Assembly (NCBI RefSeq): GCF_004116495.1
Contig: NZ_PDKC01000016.1
Coordinates: forward strand, 1-60,085
Source of the DNA: Arcobacter sp. CECT 8985
Lineage (GTDB): Bacteria; Campylobacterota; Campylobacteria; Campylobacterales; Arcobacteraceae
DNA: 60,085 nucleotides
Direction: 5' to 3'
The notes under the pieces were generated by a model that was not told the DNA's origin, made no database searches, and saw only the letters and a list, made by a program, of their open reading frames with translations. Shown in pieces: positions 194 to 28,616 of this stretch (position 1 is its first letter; each line of letters begins with the position of its first letter). A program made the translations under genes and the position numbers.

Positions 194-910
194 ATGCAAC
201 AAAAAAATAAGACAGGTTTTTTTATTTTAGGAGTATTTATATTCTTAGGTTTGAGTACTTTGGGATATTTTTTTAAAAGTGCAGTTGTTGAGTATAAACA
301 ATATGATAGAAGTGTAAAAGTAAAAGGTTTATCCCAAAAAGAGTATAAAGCAGATATTGTAATATGGCCTATTTCATATACTGAAGTTAATAATAATCTT
401 GAAAAAATGTATGATTCTATAGATAAGAACAATAAAAAAATTTATAATTTCTTGATTTCAAATGGTATAGAAAAAAGTGAAATAAGTTTTTCTGCACCAA
501 AAATAACAGATAAAGTTGCACAACAATATGGAAATGAAAAGATAAAATACAGATACAATGCAAAGCAAACAATTACAGTATATTCAAAAAATATTGATAT
601 TGTTCGAAGTGTAAAAAAATCTATATCAAAACTTGGAAAGCAGGGTATCTTATTTGCAGGAAATAATTATGGTAATAGAACTGAGTATATTTTTACAAAA
701 TTAAATGAAATAAAACCTAAAATGATAGAAGAAGCCACAAAAAAAGCTAGAGAAGTAGCTCAAAAGTTTGCAATAGATTCTAAAAGTAAATTAGGAAAAA
801 TAAAAAAAGCCTCACAAGGTCAATTTTCAATCTCACAAAGAGATAAAAATAACCCACAAATTAAAAAAATAAGAGTTGTTTCAACTGTTGAGTATTATTT
901 AACTGATTGA
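194..910 (+). CDS. SIMPL domain (DUF541) membrane-anchored protein
   Basis: The 238-residue protein begins with a short polar stretch and one hydrophobic helix at about residues 8-28, followed by a SIMPL/DUF541-type domain (about 36-236). The pattern is that of COG2859 proteins: an early VKVKGLSQKEYKAD strand, a central YxAxQTITV-like segment and a long helix rich in KAREVAQKFA. These proteins sit in the periplasm or are anchored to the inner membrane; their function is poorly defined, though family members have been linked to outer-membrane and stress phenotypes. The ATG at 194 follows AAGGAAG. The racemase gene starts 24 bases downstream on the same strand, so the two are probably co-transcribed. 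Confidence 0.8.
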   Translation: MQQKNKTGFFILGVFIFLGLSTLGYFFKSAVVEYKQYDRSVKVKGLSQKEYKADIVIWPISYTEVNNNLEKMYDSIDKNNKKIYNFLISNGIEKSEISFSAPKITDKVAQQYGNEKIKYRYNAKQTITVYSKNIDIVRSVKKSISKLGKQGILFAGNNYGNRTEYIFTKLNEIKPKMIEEATKKAREVAQKFAIDSKSKLGKIKKASQGQFSISQRDKNNPQIKKIRVVSTVEYYLTD

Positions 911-934
911 TATTGTAAAAATTTAAGGAATAAG

Positions 935-1627
935 ATGAAAACTATAGGATTACTTGGTGGAATGAGTTGGGAAAGTACTGCTTTGTATTATAAAAAAATA
1001 AATGAAGAGATTAAAGAGCAATTAGGTGGCTTACACAGTGCAAAAATTGTGCTTTATAGTGTAGATTTTGAAGAGATAGAAAAACTTCAACATCTTGGAA
1101 AGTGGGATGAAACAGCAAAGATATTAAGTAATGCAGCCAAAAACTTAGAAAATGCAAGTGCTGATTTTATAGTTATTTGTACAAATACAATGCATAAAGT
1201 TGCATCTATTATTGAACAAAATATAAATATTCCTATACTTCATATTGCAAATGCGACTGGAAAAAAACTTCAAGAAGAAGGTATTAAAAAAGTAGGGTTG
1301 TTAGGTACTGCTTTTACAATGAATCAAGAGTTTTATAAAGATACTATCTCAAATAATTTTGATATTGAAGTTATAGTTCCAAATGATGATGATATTCAAA
1401 TTATTCATAAGATTATATATGAACAGTTATGTCTTGGAATTATAAAAGAAGAGTCAAAAAAACAGTATTTAAGAATAATGCAAAAATTACACAATCAAGG
1501 TGCGGAAGGTATTATATTAGGTTGTACCGAAATTGGTATGCTTATATGCCAAGAAGATACTAATATAAAACTTTTTGATACTACACATATTCATGCTCTT
1601 GAAGCAGTGAAAGAAGCTTTAAAATAG
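935..1627 (+). CDS. aspartate/glutamate racemase family protein
   Basis: This 230-residue protein belongs to the aspartate/glutamate racemase superfamily, which uses two cysteines to move the alpha proton of an amino acid without a cofactor. The N-terminal LGGMSWEST motif, Cys82 in a CTNTMHK motif and Cys197 in a GCTEIGML motif are all present, so it should be active. The GGMSWEST start is typical of the YgeA/RacD branch (broad-spectrum or aspartate racemase) rather than MurI glutamate racemase. The exact substrate cannot be read from sequence. It follows the SIMPL gene in the same direction and meets ynfA tail to tail. Confidence 0.85.
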   Translation: MKTIGLLGGMSWESTALYYKKINEEIKEQLGGLHSAKIVLYSVDFEEIEKLQHLGKWDETAKILSNAAKNLENASADFIVICTNTMHKVASIIEQNINIPILHIANATGKKLQEEGIKKVGLLGTAFTMNQEFYKDTISNNFDIEVIVPNDDDIQIIHKIIYEQLCLGIIKEESKKQYLRIMQKLHNQGAEGIILGCTEIGMLICQEDTNIKLFDTTHIHALEAVKEALK

Positions 1628-1646
1628 TTTAACTATTTAAAAGCTT
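1613..1646. terminator. convergent hairpin between racemase and ynfA
   Basis: Arms AAGCTTTAAAATAG and CTATTTAAAAGCTT pair over 14 bases with one mismatch around a five-base loop. The hairpin spans both stop codons and probably ends transcription from both sides. Confidence 0.6.
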
Positions 1647-1967
1647 TTGATTTCCAAGTAAAATAGTACAAATACCTACAAATATTATAAGTGTTCCTAC
1701 AATATCATATTTAGTAAAGCTTTGTTTCTCTACAAAAAATAACCAGAAAAGTGAAGATACAATGTAAATACCTCCATAAATTGCATAGGCTCTTCCTGCA
1801 AACTCTAAATTAACTTTCGTAAGTAAAAATGCAAAACATATAAGTGATATCATTCCAGCAAAAAGCCAAAAAGATGATTTTTCAAGTTTAAAAACCATCC
1901 AAAAACTATAGCATCCAAATATTTCAAAAAATGCTGCTAAAAAATATATAATGAACTCTTTTATCAA
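1629..1967 (-). CDS. YnfA/UPF0060 family small membrane protein
   Basis: The 112-residue protein is almost entirely hydrophobic, with four predicted transmembrane helices, and fits the usual length of about 108-112 for the YnfA (UPF0060) family. Family hallmarks are the AAFFEIFGCY opening and the central GRAYAIYGGIYI segment followed by LFWLFFVE. YnfA proteins are related to small multidrug resistance (SMR) transporters and some have been reported to export cationic compounds. The start follows AGGAG. It is a single-gene unit between a convergent hairpin and the region upstream of the dehydrogenase gene. Confidence 0.88.
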   Translation of the reverse strand: MIKEFIIYFLAAFFEIFGCYSFWMVFKLEKSSFWLFAGMISLICFAFLLTKVNLEFAGRAYAIYGGIYIVSSLFWLFFVEKQSFTKYDIVGTLIIFVGICTILLGNQKLLNS

Positions 1968-2141
1968 AAAAATCTCCTATTTTAAGTACTTAAAAATACT
2001 ATAAAAAAAGAAAAAATCTCCTTTTAAAAGGAAATTAATAAAGATTAATTTAGAATATATGCGCTATTAGAAGTCTACAGATAAAATATAGTCTATATTA
2101 AAATAATAAAATTCTACAAAAATATTTAATTTAAGTGGCTT

Positions 2142-2166
2142 ACTATCATTTGATTCTTTTGATAGT
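2142..2166. promoter_or_regulatory. inverted repeat upstream of the LDH-like gene
   Basis: Perfect 7-base arms ACTATCA and TGATAGT are separated by 11 bases, ending 34 bases before the start codon. This may be an operator or a leader hairpin. No regulator can be assigned. Confidence 0.3.
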
Positions 2167-2200
2167 TCAAAAGATTTTATAGCATAAGGGAGAAAATTTT

Positions 2201-3190
2201 ATGCATACAAATAAATTAGTAGTTATAGGTGCAGGACATGTTGGGTCATATGTTTTAGCAGATGCGATGAAAATCGGATTATTTGGAAAAATTGGTGTAA
2301 TTGATATTTTAAATAACGTTGCATTTGGTGAAGCAGTTGATCAAGCACAAGCAACTGCTATGACGTATATGAATAATATTGATGTTACAAGTGGTGGGTA
2401 TGAACAGTGTGAAGATGCAGATATTATTGTAGTTGCAGCTGGTCCTAGTGTAATTCCAGATAAAAATGATTCAAAAGCAGAACCAGATAGAGCACAATTA
2501 ACAAAAATTAATTGTGAAGTTATAAGAGAAGTTATGACAGGTATTACAAAATATACAAAAGATGCTATTATTATACTTATTACAAATCCACTTGATACTA
2601 TGGTTTATATAGCTGAAAATGAGTTTGGTTATCCAAAAGGTAGAGTTTTTGGTACAGGAACTATGCTTGATTCTGCAAGATTACGAAAAGTAGTTGCAGA
2701 TATGTATAATATTGATCCAAAATCAGTAACTGGATATATGATGGGAGAACATGGAAAAACTGCCTTTCCTGTACTTAGTAGATTAAATGTTGCAGGTATT
2801 TCTTTTAGTGATTTGAATAAATATTTTGATGAAAAAGATTCAATTATTCATGCTGAAAAAATTCAAAAAGAGATAATTAGTGAAGCATATAAAGTTATGA
2901 ATGGTAAAGGTTGGACAAATGCAGGTGTTGCGCAAGCAGCAGTTACAATGGCACAAGCTGTATTATTAGATGAAAGAAGTGTATATCCAACTTCAACTAC
3001 TTTAAGAGGTCAATATGGTCATGATGGAGATGTTGCTTTAAGTATGCCTTGTATCATTGGTAGAGAAGGTGTTATAAAACAAATTGATGTATCTTTAAAT
3101 GAATGGGAAACTAAAAAATTAGAAGAATCAATTGATTATATTAAACTTGCTATGAAAGATGCAAAAACTGGCTTAGAATTTCTTAAATAA
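2201..3190 (+). CDS. L-2-hydroxyacid dehydrogenase, LDH/MDH superfamily
   Basis: The 329-residue protein has the full lactate/malate dehydrogenase layout: a Rossmann GAGHVGS NAD loop at residues 10-16, the ITNPLDTM strand at about 127-134, Arg160/Arg162 in DSARLRK and the catalytic His184 in GEHGKT. It interconverts a 2-hydroxyacid and its 2-oxoacid with NAD(H). The substrate loop (GPSVIPDKNDSKAEPDR) is unlike the classical lactate loop with its conserved Gln and resembles L-2-hydroxyisocaproate dehydrogenase-like members, so the substrate may be a branched or bulky 2-oxoacid. The gene is monocistronic, starts behind AGGGAG, and faces an SLC13 organic-anion permease. Confidence 0.8.
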   Translation: MHTNKLVVIGAGHVGSYVLADAMKIGLFGKIGVIDILNNVAFGEAVDQAQATAMTYMNNIDVTSGGYEQCEDADIIVVAAGPSVIPDKNDSKAEPDRAQLTKINCEVIREVMTGITKYTKDAIIILITNPLDTMVYIAENEFGYPKGRVFGTGTMLDSARLRKVVADMYNIDPKSVTGYMMGEHGKTAFPVLSRLNVAGISFSDLNKYFDEKDSIIHAEKIQKEIISEAYKVMNGKGWTNAGVAQAAVTMAQAVLLDERSVYPTSTTLRGQYGHDGDVALSMPCIIGREGVIKQIDVSLNEWETKKLEESIDYIKLAMKDAKTGLEFLK

Positions 3191-3193
3191 CAT

Positions 3194-3227
3194 AAGTTTC
3201 TAAAGTTATTAAAATAGCTTTAGAAAC
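3194..3227. terminator. convergent hairpin between dehydrogenase and SLC13 permease genes
   Basis: Perfect 11-base arms AGTTTCTAAAG and CTTTAGAAACT surround a 12-base AT-rich loop just after the dehydrogenase stop. The right arm lies within the last codons of the opposing permease gene. Confidence 0.6.
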
Positions 3228-4561
3228 TCTACCCAAAAATATTGCAATGGATATAAAAAAACAACTGTAATGATAGCTGTTGCAAATAAGGTTTTTATTA
3301 CATATTTTTGTTTTATTTTAGAGAGTGCAAGACCTACAATAAGTGGTGGTGCTTGATGTGCAAAAAATATATTTGAATAAGCAGCAACTTCCATCATAAA
3401 TACTTGATCCAAACTAAAACCTGTTACATTACTTATTTGTTCTGCCATTGGTGTAAATATAGCAGGAATAGTTGGTTGAGTAGTAAATATTCCAGATAAA
3501 GACATAAATAAAGTAACTTTAATATAATCAAATACAGCATAAGAAGATGGTGTATATAAATTAATAATATCAGTTAAAAGAGTTTTTATATAGCTATTAT
3601 GAGCAACAACTGTTCCTAAACCTATTATTGTTGCTACAAATAGAAGTGATGAAAACTTGATACCATTGACATCTTCTGTTTTAATAATACCTACAAATGG
3701 AAGAGCTAAGAATAGAACTCCACAAATAGCAATTGTATTTGGTTGTATTTTATGAATAAAATCAGTAGCCCAAAAACATATCATAATTAAGATAGTAAGA
3801 AGCAGAATTATCTCATTTTTTGAAAATCTAACTTTTGTTTTATTCTGTTCTATTAATTTTGGGGTGTCATTAAAAAATTTATAAATTAAAGTGATAATTA
3901 TGATATTTTTTATAATTCCAAATATCAAAAAGTTTGTAATCAAATAGTGAGAATATAAAATTTCTGTATGGTATATCTGAGAAGTTAATCCTGATAATAT
4001 CATATTTGGTACATTTGCAGGAAGTATAGAAAATCCAGACATTGAAGTAGAAAGAATAAACATAAGCAATATACCAATATATCCTTTATCATGTTCTTTA
4101 AATCCAAAACTATTTGCAACAGCAATAGCAATAGGAACCATCAAAACAACTCTTCCTACACTTGAGGGCATAACAAAACTAAAAATAGATGAAAAGATAC
4201 AAATAGTTATAAGAATATTTAGATAATTAATATTTTTTAAATTTGAAAAGTACTTAGAAAATCTACTAGTTAAATTTACATTTTTTATAGCTGCTGCAAT
4301 AAGCATACCTGAAAATACTAACCAAAATGCAGAAGATGCAAAACCAGAGAATATTAACTCTTTTGAACTTAATGAAAATACGCTACAAGAAAATAAAAAT
4401 AATAATGAACTAAAAAAACTAGGAACTAAAGCTGTAGCCCAAAATATAATAGTTGTGGCAACTGTAGTTATAAGAATCAAATCTTTTTGTTCAATTACGA
4501 AATTTGAAAGGATAGTATATATGAAAATTGGAATAAAAATAATAGAAATATTTTTTAACAT
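3209..4561 (-). CDS. SLC13/DASS family anion permease
   Basis: The 450-residue protein is an integral membrane protein with about 11-12 hydrophobic segments and the layout of the divalent anion:sodium symporter (DASS/SLC13) family. A helix-hairpin reading VMPSSVGRVVLMVPIAIA and a second inverted-repeat hairpin near TQPTIPAIFTPMAEQ look like the two hairpins that hold the SNT-type substrate motifs in this family, though the classic SNT triplets are altered. Likely substrates are C4-dicarboxylates, sulfate or related organic anions. It is convergent with the 2-hydroxyacid dehydrogenase, which may only be coincidence. The ribosome binding site before the ATG at 4561 is weak. Confidence 0.75.
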   Translation of the reverse strand: MLKNISIIFIPIFIYTILSNFVIEQKDLILITTVATTIIFWATALVPSFFSSLLFLFSCSVFSLSSKELIFSGFASSAFWLVFSGMLIAAAIKNVNLTSRFSKYFSNLKNINYLNILITICIFSSIFSFVMPSSVGRVVLMVPIAIAVANSFGFKEHDKGYIGILLMFILSTSMSGFSILPANVPNMILSGLTSQIYHTEILYSHYLITNFLIFGIIKNIIIITLIYKFFNDTPKLIEQNKTKVRFSKNEIILLLTILIMICFWATDFIHKIQPNTIAICGVLFLALPFVGIIKTEDVNGIKFSSLLFVATIIGLGTVVAHNSYIKTLLTDIINLYTPSSYAVFDYIKVTLFMSLSGIFTTQPTIPAIFTPMAEQISNVTGFSLDQVFMMEVAAYSNIFFAHQAPPLIVGLALSKIKQKYVIKTLFATAIITVVFLYPLQYFWVEFLKLF

Positions 4562-4665
4562 AAAAGTTCTTTTTTTTTAAATTGTATTAGAGTATTATAA
4601 TTTCTTTTAAGAAACAATATTTTTATTGTTTTGATATAATTTCATCACAACGAAATGAGGTATTT

Positions 4666-5298
4666 ATGAATAAAGAGAAATTAAAAGATGTAGAAGCAGA
4701 GTTTTTAGAAGTTTATCCAAAAGCATTTAAAGATGAAAAATTAATACCAATGATAAAAAAATTTAATCCAGAAAAATTAGAAGAAGTAGCAAAAGAGTAT
4801 TTCAAAGAAGAAAACTTTTCTCAACCACAAATAATATGTGAAGGATTTATGAAAGTAATATCTCGTTCACCTATGGTTTCACTTTTTGATAAAGCAAAAT
4901 TAAGAGATGCTTTAAAATCAATGGATATTTATCAAAAAGATATGTTAAGTATTGAGTTATATGAATTGATACATGGAAATAAAAAAAATGGATTTAATGG
5001 ATTAGTTGAGTTTTTAGCAGAATATAATCTTGGAAAATGGACTTTAGTTACACTTATACCTTATGCTTTAAAAAGAAAAAGAGAATACTTTGTAAAACCA
5101 ACAACAACTAAAATGATTATAGATTATTTAGAGTTAGAAAATTTAACATATAAACCAAGACCAACTTATGAGTTTTATAAAAACTATTCAAAGGCATTAA
5201 CTTCTATAAAAAAAGAGGTTAAAAAATCACTACTTTACGATAATGCTGCATTTACAGGATTTTTGAAAATGGGAATATCAATCTGCCAAGAGCATTAG
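4666..5298 (+). CDS. conserved hypothetical soluble protein
   Basis: I do not recognise this 210-residue protein. It is soluble, lysine and glutamate rich, with no signal peptide or membrane segment, and predicted to be mostly helical. It contains no obvious catalytic motif, and its two cysteines (in IICEGF and SICQEH) are far apart. The start ATG at 4666 follows GAGG at a short distance. The gene is monocistronic and overlaps the end of the opposing Crp/Fnr gene by four bases. Codon usage matches its neighbours, so I treat it as a real gene. Confidence 0.7.
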   Translation: MNKEKLKDVEAEFLEVYPKAFKDEKLIPMIKKFNPEKLEEVAKEYFKEENFSQPQIICEGFMKVISRSPMVSLFDKAKLRDALKSMDIYQKDMLSIELYELIHGNKKNGFNGLVEFLAEYNLGKWTLVTLIPYALKRKREYFVKPTTTKMIIDYLELENLTYKPRPTYEFYKNYSKALTSIKKEVKKSLLYDNAAFTGFLKMGISICQEH

Positions 5299-10535: not shown

Positions 10536-11152
10536 CTATAATCTATTATATCTTCTACACTAAGAATTGGCATATTAAATTTTTTTGCAATATTTTTTAT
10601 ATCTTCACCTTTTGCCATAGTTCCATCTTCATTTGTGAGTTCACATAAAACTGCGACAGGTTCTAAATTTGACAATTTCATCAAATCAATACTTGCTTCT
10701 GTGTGACCTTGTCTTTCAAACACACCATTATCTCTAGCTCTTAAAGGAAATACATGTCCTGGAGATACAATATGGTTTATTCCATCTTTTTTTATTGCTG
10801 ATTTGATTGTAGTAACTCTATCTTTTGCACTAACACCTGTAGTAACATTTTCTTTTGATTCAATTGTTATTGTAAAAGGAGTTTGATATTTTGAATTATT
10901 TGATTCAACCATCATTGGAAGTTGTAACTCATTTACTTTTTTTGAAGTTAGACATAGGCATACAATACCACTACATTCTTTTATTAAAATAGCCATCTGT
11001 TTTTCAGTTATAGTATTTGCATAAAATATAATATCTGCTTCATCTTCTCTATTTTTGTCATCATTTACGATAACACCTTTGCCATTTTGAAGCGCTTTTA
11101 TAGCAGCTTGAACATTTTGTTTAAAATTTGAATTTGAAATTTTTTGATTCAT
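10517..11152 (-). CDS. ribB: 3,4-dihydroxy-2-butanone 4-phosphate synthase
   Basis: RibB converts ribulose 5-phosphate into 3,4-dihydroxy-2-butanone 4-phosphate, the four-carbon precursor of riboflavin. This 211-residue protein has the single-domain length of E. coli RibB, and motifs for metal and substrate binding: NDDKNREDEADIIF, SGIVCLCLT, the DRVTTIKSAI loop, ISPGHVFPLRARDNGVFERQGHTEASIDL and the late CELTNEDGTMAKGEDI. No GTP cyclohydrolase II domain is fused. The gene stands alone behind an FMN riboswitch about 105 bases upstream, so expression should fall when FMN is plentiful. Confidence 0.95.
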   Translation of the reverse strand: MNQKISNSNFKQNVQAAIKALQNGKGVIVNDDKNREDEADIIFYANTITEKQMAILIKECSGIVCLCLTSKKVNELQLPMMVESNNSKYQTPFTITIESKENVTTGVSAKDRVTTIKSAIKKDGINHIVSPGHVFPLRARDNGVFERQGHTEASIDLMKLSNLEPVAVLCELTNEDGTMAKGEDIKNIAKKFNMPILSVEDIIDYRKATES

Positions 11153-11257
11153 TTAGTTTATTCCCTTAATTGAATTAACTTATTGAATCAGGGCTTTATA
11201 TAGTAAGTCATACAAGTGTATATGTATATATTTAATAACAGTAGTAAAACTTTTATA

Positions 11258-11395
11258 TTCTCTTTCATCCAGACTTTAACTGTTGGTTTTGGATTTGCAC
11301 CAAATCTGCTTGACCTTTACAAATGTAAAGCGCTCGTGGACTTCTATAAAATTATAGTTACCACCAGTAAGGAATTTCACCTTGCCCTGAGAAAT
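11258..11395 (-). promoter_or_regulatory. FMN riboswitch (RFN element) for ribB
   Basis: Read on the minus strand, the region has the conserved RFN sequence blocks in the right order: TCAGGGCAAGGTGAAATTCC, then ACTGGTGGTAA, AAGTCCACGAGCG, GGTCAAGCAGATTTGGTG, ATCCAAAACCAACAGT and TCTGGATGAAAGAGAA. The outer CTC/GAG-type ends pair to close the multi-branched aptamer. About 105 bases separate it from the ribB start, enough for an expression platform. The rest of the 340-base space between 11153 and 11493 holds only AT-rich leader and the promoter of the divergent AraC gene. Confidence 0.95.
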
Positions 11396-11493
11396 AAATT
11401 TATAAAATTATAACTGAATCTTACTTATTTAAATGTTATAAATAAGCATCAAAATAATTGACTTTATATATTTGATTTTTGTAATATTTTATT

Positions 11494-26372: not shown

Positions 26373-27572
26373 TTAATTCTCATAAATTATTTTATTTTTT
26401 TCTTTTGAAAAAGTAAAATGTTTAAAATCAAACTTTATCTTATATGGATATAGTTTTTGTCTATTTTGAAATGAAATAATAGAATCTTTTTTAATTATTC
26501 CATCTTCAATATTAATTGCATAATTTATAGTTTTATTTTTATGCCACATTTTTTTTCCTGCTAAAACAATAGGTAAATATACTAATAGTGCTTCTGAAAT
26601 TGAACGCGTCGCACTTTCCCATAAATAACTAGGGGTGTGGTCAACAGCATAATAGTTTATTGTTTTATATTTTATTATTGGTTTTTTAAATGTGGTAGGT
26701 TTTGCAAAAAAAAATCCCATTTTTTCATCACAACTTACATCTATGATTAAGCAGTTTGGTTTTAAACATGAACTCTCTTTTTCAATTACAAAGTTTGTGG
26801 GATTTTGTGTATTTTGATAGACACCATTTACAATAATATCTGATTGACTAATTAGTTCAGTAAGTGCTCTTTTTGAGCCATCGTGTTCAACTACTATCAT
26901 ACGAGCTTGATCTTTTTGTCCTTGTTCAATTCTAACATAATGACAATCAAGTATCTCTTCTCTTACTTCGTAATTATTTCTTTGAATACAAATAGTTATA
27001 TCTCTAAAACCATGGGCTTTAAGAGCATAAATTGCTCCACGACTTACTGCTCCAAATCCAAAAATAATAGTTTTACGTTGATTCCCATAATGACCATCAA
27101 TACCTTTTAATTGCAGTGCATGAATTACTGCACAGTAACCTGCCATTTCGTTATTTTTATAAAAAGTATGCCTACCAATTTGTCCAGTTGTTGACCATGC
27201 AAACATATCTTCAAATGCAATAAGTGTTTGTTTTCTTTTTATTGCAATTTGTGTAATATCTTGTTGTTGGACACAATGTACATATCCCCAAAGTGTTCCA
27301 CCAATTTTTAATTCTTTTAAATCTTCTAACATAGGTTTATTAATTATTACTATACCAATATTTGCAAGTAAATTATGTCTTGTATCTATTCCTGCACATA
27401 AAAGTGAAATTTCATTGTCTGAAATACCAAGCGAAGCACCATAACCCTCTTCAAATATTAATTGTTCTCTTAATTCTTTTGGAATTCGTGATAAATGTTT
27501 TGGATGAATCGGAAGCCTTTTCTCATCAATTTTCTTTGAAGTTCCAATGACTCCTATTTTTAATTTATGCAT
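26373..27572 (-). CDS. N5-(carboxyethyl)ornithine synthase-like enzyme
   Basis: The 399-residue protein belongs to the alanine dehydrogenase/CEO synthase fold. The N-terminal IGVIGTSKKIDEKRLPIHPKHL and EEGYGASLGISDNE, then a Rossmann NAD(P) loop IIFGFGAVSRGAIYALKAHG at about 169-188, and the C-terminal NYYAVDHTPSYLWESATRSISEALLVYLP follow the N5-(L-1-carboxyethyl)-L-ornithine synthase branch. That enzyme condenses pyruvate with ornithine (or lysine) using NADPH. The gene is monocistronic, and the 303 bases upstream contain an unusual structured element. It could instead be a saccharopine- or alanine-dehydrogenase relative with another amine substrate. Confidence 0.75.
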   Translation of the reverse strand: MHKLKIGVIGTSKKIDEKRLPIHPKHLSRIPKELREQLIFEEGYGASLGISDNEISLLCAGIDTRHNLLANIGIVIINKPMLEDLKELKIGGTLWGYVHCVQQQDITQIAIKRKQTLIAFEDMFAWSTTGQIGRHTFYKNNEMAGYCAVIHALQLKGIDGHYGNQRKTIIFGFGAVSRGAIYALKAHGFRDITICIQRNNYEVREEILDCHYVRIEQGQKDQARMIVVEHDGSKRALTELISQSDIIVNGVYQNTQNPTNFVIEKESSCLKPNCLIIDVSCDEKMGFFFAKPTTFKKPIIKYKTINYYAVDHTPSYLWESATRSISEALLVYLPIVLAGKKMWHKNKTINYAINIEDGIIKKDSIISFQNRQKLYPYKIKFDFKHFTFSKEKNKIIYEN

Positions 27573-27740
27573 ATTATAATTTCCTTTGATTTAATTCACT
27601 ATCTTTTTTTCCCATATTTTAAAATACTTTATTAGATATGATATATATTAGAAAAGCAAAAAATGCCAATAATTTATATCTATGATAGGTCTATTTAATT
27701 TTTGCTCTGTTTTAGATGTATAGATTTTTACTTTTATACA

Positions 27741-27800
27741 AGTAACGGTGTATCAAGCCTGAGAAGCGACTTTTTAAGGTGCAATACGCGTTTGTTATGC
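27741..27800. other. GC-richer 60-base imperfect dyad, attC-like
   Basis: This 60-base stretch has 26 G or C (43%), far above the AT-rich flanks, and lies in the 303-base gap between the dsbC-like and CEO synthase genes. Its ends hold imperfect complementary boxes: AAGTAAC on the left and GTTATGC on the right. Inner pairs are GTAT/ATAC, GCCT/AGGT and AGAAG/CTTTT around a CGA loop. On the minus strand it begins GCATAACAAACGC, which resembles the start of Vibrio attC sites as I remember them, and the length fits a 59-base element. No integrase is in the window. It could also be a small RNA or a leader of the CEO synthase gene. The rest of the gap is featureless AT-rich DNA. Confidence 0.4.
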
Positions 27801-27847
27801 AGTTTATCTGAATTGTGAAATTAAATCAAATTATAAAATTATAAAAG

Positions 27848-27869
27848 CAAAATCACAAGTGTGATTTTG
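27848..27869. terminator. hairpin after the dsbC-like gene
   Basis: Perfect 10-base arms CAAAATCACA and TGTGATTTTG with a two-base loop lie just past the minus-strand stop codon at 27876. A T-rich stretch follows on the + strand (TCTTTTTT) and CTTTTATAA on the minus strand, so it may work both ways. Confidence 0.7.
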
Positions 27870-27875
27870 TCTTTT

Positions 27876-28616
27876 TTAGAAATTAACTTTGATACCTTTT
27901 TTTTGTAATATCTCTACCCAAGATACTTTTTTACCATTAATATCATACATAGTAGGAGTTGCACTAACATTTAACTTTTTTGCAGCATTTATTTGTTCAT
28001 TAAGTCTTTTTTCTAGTTTAGCATATTCTGCATCATCATATTTTCTATTTTTAAATTCTGCAGATTGTGCAGTTACATTTAATAAAGCATCAACTTTTTC
28101 TTTTTTAGTTTTTTTACTCATGTAATACAAAGATAACTCTTTTGCATTTTTATGATAACTTAAAGGGAAAAGAAATATTCTTATTTTTACATCTTTTTCT
28201 ATTTGAGAGAAATAAGACTCAAATTTTTTACAATAAGGGCACTCAGGATCTGTAAATAATATATATTCATCTTTACCTGAACCAAATGTAAAGGCTTCTT
28301 TGCCTAAAATATTTGATAAATCAATTGGCAAGGTATAATTATCTCCATTCTTTGTATTTATTGCATTACCTGAAAAAACTACTTTTTTATCTTTTGTTAA
28401 AAAAAGTTCTTGATGAGCATGACCTTGAATTGTTGCATCTAGTACAAATATACTACCTAAATCATAAGCTTTACTAATAGTAATCCCTGATTGTTTTATT
28501 AAATTCAAGTTGTTGATTGTATTCAGTTCTTTTTTTGATACTTCTTTACTTTTTTGAGCATATAGTAAAGTTGAACATAAAAGTACTAAAAATAAGTTTT
28601 TAATTATGTTAGACAT
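27876..28616 (-). CDS. DsbC/DsbG-like periplasmic thiol-disulfide oxidoreductase
   Basis: The 246-residue protein has a signal peptide (NLFLVLLCSTLLYAQ) and a thioredoxin-fold domain with the active site CPYC at Cys126-Cys129 in FTDPECPYCKKFE, then the cis-Pro loop VSATPTMYDINGK. The short N-terminal domain (about 25-110) resembles the cystatin-like dimerisation domain of DsbC. It probably shuffles or reduces disulfides in the periplasm. The gene stands alone with its own terminator. Whether it is an isomerase (DsbC) or an atypical DsbA/DsbG cannot be settled by sequence. Confidence 0.82.
   Translation of the reverse strand: MSNIIKNLFLVLLCSTLLYAQKSKEVSKKELNTINNLNLIKQSGITISKAYDLGSIFVLDATIQGHAHQELFLTKDKKVVFSGNAINTKNGDNYTLPIDLSNILGKEAFTFGSGKDEYILFTDPECPYCKKFESYFSQIEKDVKIRIFLFPLSYHKNAKELSLYYMSKKTKKEKVDALLNVTAQSAEFKNRKYDDAEYAKLEKRLNEQINAAKKLNVSATPTMYDINGKKVSWVEILQKKGIKVNF

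Follow-up and report, generated by a model that had tools for sequence, protein, structure and literature searches.

The GC-rich element at 27740-27800 of the window (the whole stretch of DNA analysed here, 60,085 nucleotides from Arcobacter sp. CECT 8985) is probably the 5' leader of a CEO-synthase-like gene, the ancestor of which entered the Campylobacterota as an integron gene cassette. The element is conserved within a larger block of roughly 140 nt (minus strand, 27837-27697), a unit that the first-pass annotation had missed. Judging from comparison with related genomes, this unit is a promoter-like block together with the 5' leader of the CEO-synthase-like gene. The parts of the locus are as follows.

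27876-28616, minus strand: DsbC/thioredoxin-like protein, the upstream neighbour, outside the unit
27847-27870, no strand assigned: two-way terminator-like hairpin 3' of the dsbC-like gene (terminator scan: 2 found, 0.0 expected)
27801-27830, minus strand: promoter-like block, TTTGAT - 18 nt - TAAACT, recognised by eye and conserved in the Arcobacteraceae copies (alignment)
27763-27800, minus strand: segment between the promoter-like block and the cassette boundary (GCATAACAAACGCG...CTTC), conserved in 6 genomes
27757-27762, minus strand: TCAGGC, counterpart of the relatives' TTAGGC at the cassette 5' boundary (alignment and boundary sharpness)
27697-27762, minus strand: conserved stretch of the cassette-type leader (GCTTGATACACCGTTACTTGTA ... 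CATCTAAAACAGAGCAAAA), its conservation exceeding that of fourfold sites
27573-27696, minus strand: decayed 3' half of the leader (alignment)
26373-27572, minus strand: CEO-synthase-like protein, 399 aa, AlaDH/PNT fold family

The promoter, TTTGAT-18-TAAACT, is putative and was absent from the output of a consensus promoter scan. The segment at 27763-27800 (minus strand), which is the part that had been taken as attC-like, likely forms the first bases of the transcript.

The element had been described as a GC island in AT-rich DNA, and this was borne out by a GC content of 41.7% at 27740-27799, with adjacent 60-base windows down to 15-25%. The minus strand opens with GCATAACAAACGC, as had been reported. 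The exact 13-mer occurred a single time in the window and was private to the window genome; G030, G016, and G032 carry CATAAACGCG, and G018 and G067 carry AATAATCGCG. When the same genome was searched for further copies, as the first-pass annotation had proposed, one full copy was found, and the other matches were 41 bases or shorter, bar one of 53 bases at 72% identity. Regarding the imperfect dyad, the end boxes are present (AAGTAAC at 27740-27746 and GTTATGC at 27794-27800), but the dyad does not exceed chance. The plus-strand 60-mer folded with a z of -1.46 (19 of 200 shuffles were equally good) and the minus-strand 60-mer with a z of -0.15 (83 of 200), and the spaced motif GTAAC-N40..60-GTTA was observed 10 times in the window versus 6.9 +/- 2.7 expected. 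As a whole, the first-pass observation was partly confirmed, and its interpretation partly supported.

The element had been proposed to be an attC site. The GCATAACAAACGC start with its GCATAAC box is the chief likeness of the stretch to Vibrio attC sites; unlike these, the element keeps no R'/R'' pair in its relatives and has no attC model score, and the GCATAAC (R'' / TAAC) box is absent in all five other genomes that keep the region. The model was our own covariance model, not that of IntegronFinder, and was built from 20 sites, to which the structure was added manually; an attC model lacking such a hand-drawn structure contained no base pairs. With filters off, 27740-27800 was the top place of its 161-base stretch, yet its score was 4.2 bits and its E-value there 0.38. 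In the same model, the array on contig C66 of the host scored 67-77 bits (training sites), and the non-training sites that were found scored 72.2 and 36.3 bits on C82 and 41.6 bits on C33. A scan of the whole window with default filters gave no match at the element; the sole match was at 10828-10872 (17.3 bits, E = 0.19). By this model, the window has no attC 3' of the CEO-synthase-like gene, after 26373, and none is left at either end of the window copy. The segment upstream of the boundary was not alike to the attI or attC of the host, and a blastn comparison of the leader with ten integron regions gave, among the matches listed, short weak ones only. The attC reading was rejected on the 4.2 bits, the lack of a match at the element in the whole-window scan, the unconserved R'' box, the pairing test (p = 0.21), and the chance-level count of the spaced motif.

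The first-pass annotation had also named a leader of the downstream gene as an alternative, and this is what the distribution of the block upheld. A DNA search of 60 relatives hit 8 genomes at E <= 0.1, of which four gave long matches (the own genome, G018, G032, and G016) and the other four 17-base matches. Of 104 family genomes, six (G000, G018, G067, G032, G016, and G030) contained the block according to a sequence-only model, run with stricter filters from which weak copies could escape. All six carry the CEO-synthase-like gene, which is read as two pieces in G067, and the block was conserved solely 5' of CEO-synthase genes (6 of 6 places in the 104 genomes), a pattern that the annotation itself had set against an attC. 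Another genome of the same genus, G003, retains the promoter-like part along with the distal leader and lacks the intervening segment. Among ten pairs of five genomes, the segment upstream of the boundary showed 65-86% identity and the leader part 72-92%, compared to 46-66% at the fourfold sites of the gene; both segments exceeded the fourfold value in 10 of 10 pairs. As judged by eye on the leader alignment, no short reading frame is conserved in the leader, the frame not being kept.

The block lies directly 5' of the CEO-synthase-like gene in the window and in G032. In the other four genomes (G018, G067, G030, and G016), a DUF2179-type gene lies between leader and CEO-synthase-like gene, assigned by Pfam in G018, by a similar reading frame in G016, and by the upstream DNA in G067 and G030; the frame in G030 looks broken. 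The last ~55 bases before the window start codon resemble the DUF2179 gene end and spacer of G018 and G030; given the AT-richness of this region the likeness is suggestive only, but it would point to the loss of a DUF2179-type gene in the line of the window. In L020, L021, and L034, a frame of ~10 codons (ATGAAC...) stands between the leader and the DUF2179-type gene, and its TGA overlaps the DUF2179-type start; to the eye, it looks like the former start of the CEO-synthase gene and the first few codons, left after the insertion of the DUF2179-type gene.

A protein search of genome contigs gave 282 confirmed relatives, the best 80 of which were used as loci. At E <= 1e-5, a profile of ten leaders matched 51 of 92 upstream stretches, namely 46 of the 80 loci, among which the ten profile seeds are counted, and five stretches of the Campylobacterota set. 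Going by the titles of their records, the matches fall in Pseudomonadota, Campylobacterota, Acidobacteriota, Nitrospirota, Verrucomicrobiota, and Lentisphaerota; since metagenome bins make up several of them, some of these labels may be wrong. The window leader itself was not matched by the profile at E <= 1; it joins the marine leaders in the alignment via L020, L021, L034, and L035. In the relatives, the cassette-type leader runs for ~130-165 nt from TTAGGC to the start codon. Across 12 loci, the mean pairwise identity upstream of TTAGGC was 20-28% per 10-base bin over 60 bases, and that in the first four 10-base bins downstream was 74, 42, 51, and 37%, the first bin being raised by the choice of these loci for a TTAGG/TTGG-like start. 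Such a start is missing from other loci that carry the leader, L044, L045, and L060 for example. In the alignment, the 5' boundary of the window copy is homologous to the cassette start and lies at 27763/27762.

The cassette form is seen most fully in L069 (CP037918.1), the complete chromosome of a Chromatiaceae bacterium. It has five attC sites on one strand, each with 7/7 paired R boxes, and reading frames between them. The leader and the gene follow the second attC and precede the third, the latter overlapping the stop codon of the CEO-synthase-like gene, so that the gene has an attC on both sides, one of them overlapping its end, within an array. A high-scoring attC stands beside the gene in a few loci (both sides in L069, 3' in L090, 5' in L041, weak and 3' in L068), all of them training sites. 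The stop codon lies inside GCCTAAC in 8 of the 80 loci (L059, L061, L064, L068, L069, L073, L085, and L090), and in 15 of the 80 it continues as TAAC. Six seeds (L068, L064, L059, L044, L063, and L041) and L039 have in common a short attC-like tail 3' of the stop. An initial search for attC that required strict cores gave no array beside intI and one stray match, and repeats exposed the arrays. The relaxed scan was noisy (99 matches in 532 kb of loci versus 50 in 261 kb shuffled), and its matches were used only where they were placed at leader or gene ends. When nine related loci were searched whole against Rfam, group II introns were found in L068 alone, with several matches around the cassette gene at 442-5252. 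No phage relative of the CEO-synthase-like gene was found in the phage search, and the plasmid search gave two relatives, with identities of 42.1% and 39.7%, which bear the annotation N(5)-(carboxyethyl)ornithine synthase. The one at 39.7% is in the E. coli plasmid NZ_AP027746.1 (L146, 2001-3116), among polysaccharide genes for a flippase, a glycosyltransferase, and a sugar-phosphate transferase.

In PMC8618304 and PMC11014356, an integron gene cassette with its own promoter is described as a gene with an attC after it, with a boundary at G^TT, arranged in arrays and carrying expression signals of its own. L069 matches the gene-attC order and the array described there; in contrast, the leader here is very long and conserved, and the window copy lacks both attC and array. 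The window locus has in common with a CALIN, an attC cluster without integrase (PMC8618304), that it would be cassette-derived DNA away from intI, but it is not a CALIN since no attC is left.

In the tree of 90 proteins, 17 Campylobacterota rows including the window form one clade (100/96). This clade sits in a fork of 46 rows, the other 29 of which are Pseudomonadota, with a support of 91/86 that is not starred and a bootstrap that is unsettled. L104, L110, and CAMP_L030 group with Neptunomonas (97/83), CAMP_L028 falls at no resolved place, and CAMP_L032 is on a long branch. Because the rows fall in separate places, the gene probably entered the Campylobacterota more than once, with the window in the largest entry, and the transfer would have run from proteobacterial genes to the Campylobacterota. 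A second Campylobacterota leader set (L026, L027, L029, L040, and L066) has ATAAACG in common and a different body.

Integrons in Campylobacterota are already in print (PMC8618304). An intI above the cut-off was found in 16 of 104 family genomes and, in a sample of 397 genomes of the phylum, in 34. In the window genome, contig C66 carries an intI split over two frames, of 239 and 152 bits, both below the cut-off of 265, and a divergent array in which small reading frames are accompanied by attC repeats. The region at 7246-10979 of L126 (C66:10019-30000) is a decaying chromosomal integron with attC repeats of ~64 nt. In L128, L131, and other Arcobacteraceae intI regions, an attI-like ending, AATAAATAGTTA, adjoins the first cassette, and the common attC type of these regions is ATAACAAA..CA.TGGAG...CTCA..TCAAACGTTA.

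The earlier suggestion of a past integron capture is thus supported at one remove, by the cassette boundary, the attC-flanked relatives, and the decayed integron in the same genome, and not by an attC at the element. In favour of capture, the leader homology in the 12 chosen loci starts at TTAGGC, as at a cassette boundary. On the other hand, the gene and a conserved leader could have been passed on in ordinary fashion, vertically or horizontally, with integrons in a few marine bacteria capturing the gene secondarily and the Campylobacterota copy never having been a cassette; we regard this as unlikely, though worth weighing. Such a history would agree with the high-scoring attC beside the gene in only a few of the 80 loci and with the lack of attC in the window. 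However, the homology of the Campylobacterota copies to the marine leaders also begins at the TTAGG boundary, as cassette descent predicts. It is still less likely that the element is a decayed attC of a preceding cassette (minus strand, 27800-27757), with R'' GCATAAC, R' CTCAGGC, and AA[C]GCG pairing CGCTT around an extra base. Its arms pair in attC fashion (-10.5 kcal/mol, total length 45), and the true cassette boundary in the alignment falls exactly at the would-be R'. Nevertheless, the pairing test upstream of the boundary gave p = 0.21 against shuffles (a weak test, by which the real attC in L041 was also missed), the attC model gave the 4.2 bits mentioned above, the other five genomes are without GCATAAC, and the constraint keeps the block, contrary to a decaying site.

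A structured regulatory RNA of riboswitch-like type, or a separate small RNA as the first-pass annotation had offered, seems to us the least probable of these readings. The untranslated sequence is strongly conserved, and a 146-nt stretch of the plus strand folds with a z of -2.81 (2 of 200 shuffles as good), the terminator hairpin included. A plus-strand small RNA was rejected as a candidate: its fold takes in the terminator, and it is on the minus strand that both the gene and the conserved promoter-like part are read. Rfam gave no gathering-score match over the core and weak matches only at 27812-27886; its sole gathering-score match in the window is an FMN riboswitch far off (11253-11398, minus strand, 114.9 bits). 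None of the 23 predicted pairs changed on both sides among five sequences, and no consensus pairs were obtained in 27 leaders. Three leader subsets had no folding advantage over shuffled columns, 11-16 of 100 of which were as low; the mean fold z of single leaders was -0.15. The Rfam, covariation, consensus-pair, and shuffled-column tests all argue against a structured RNA. No conserved RNA fold was found, and the leader most likely acts at the DNA or mRNA-start level.

The cassette origin of the leader, which we prefer, would have run as follows. The ancestor of the CEO-synthase-like gene probably entered the Campylobacterota as an integron gene cassette that started at TTAGGC and carried the leader. 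In the Arcobacteraceae copies, the boundary at 27763/27762 can still be read, the attC would have been lost, and a putative promoter lies just upstream of the old boundary. The line of the window probably lost the DUF2179-type gene and, with it, the 3' half of the leader. The leader most likely would set the start of transcription and the expression of the enzyme. We also speculate, with considerable doubt, that the leader is a portable cis-regulatory unit (an operator or an mRNA element) through which the gene stays under its own control whichever host the cassette enters, and that the Arcobacteraceae rewired it with a promoter before the old boundary.

No paper joining the name of the enzyme with integron or cassette was found in a search of open-licence PMC articles. 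The locus would represent a metabolic-enzyme gene that travelled in cassette form, bringing a long leader with it, and then settled in chromosomes that retain a readable boundary but no attC. Domesticated cassettes of this kind escape tools based on attC or intI, and the share of integron-derived genes in chromosomes may therefore be underestimated.
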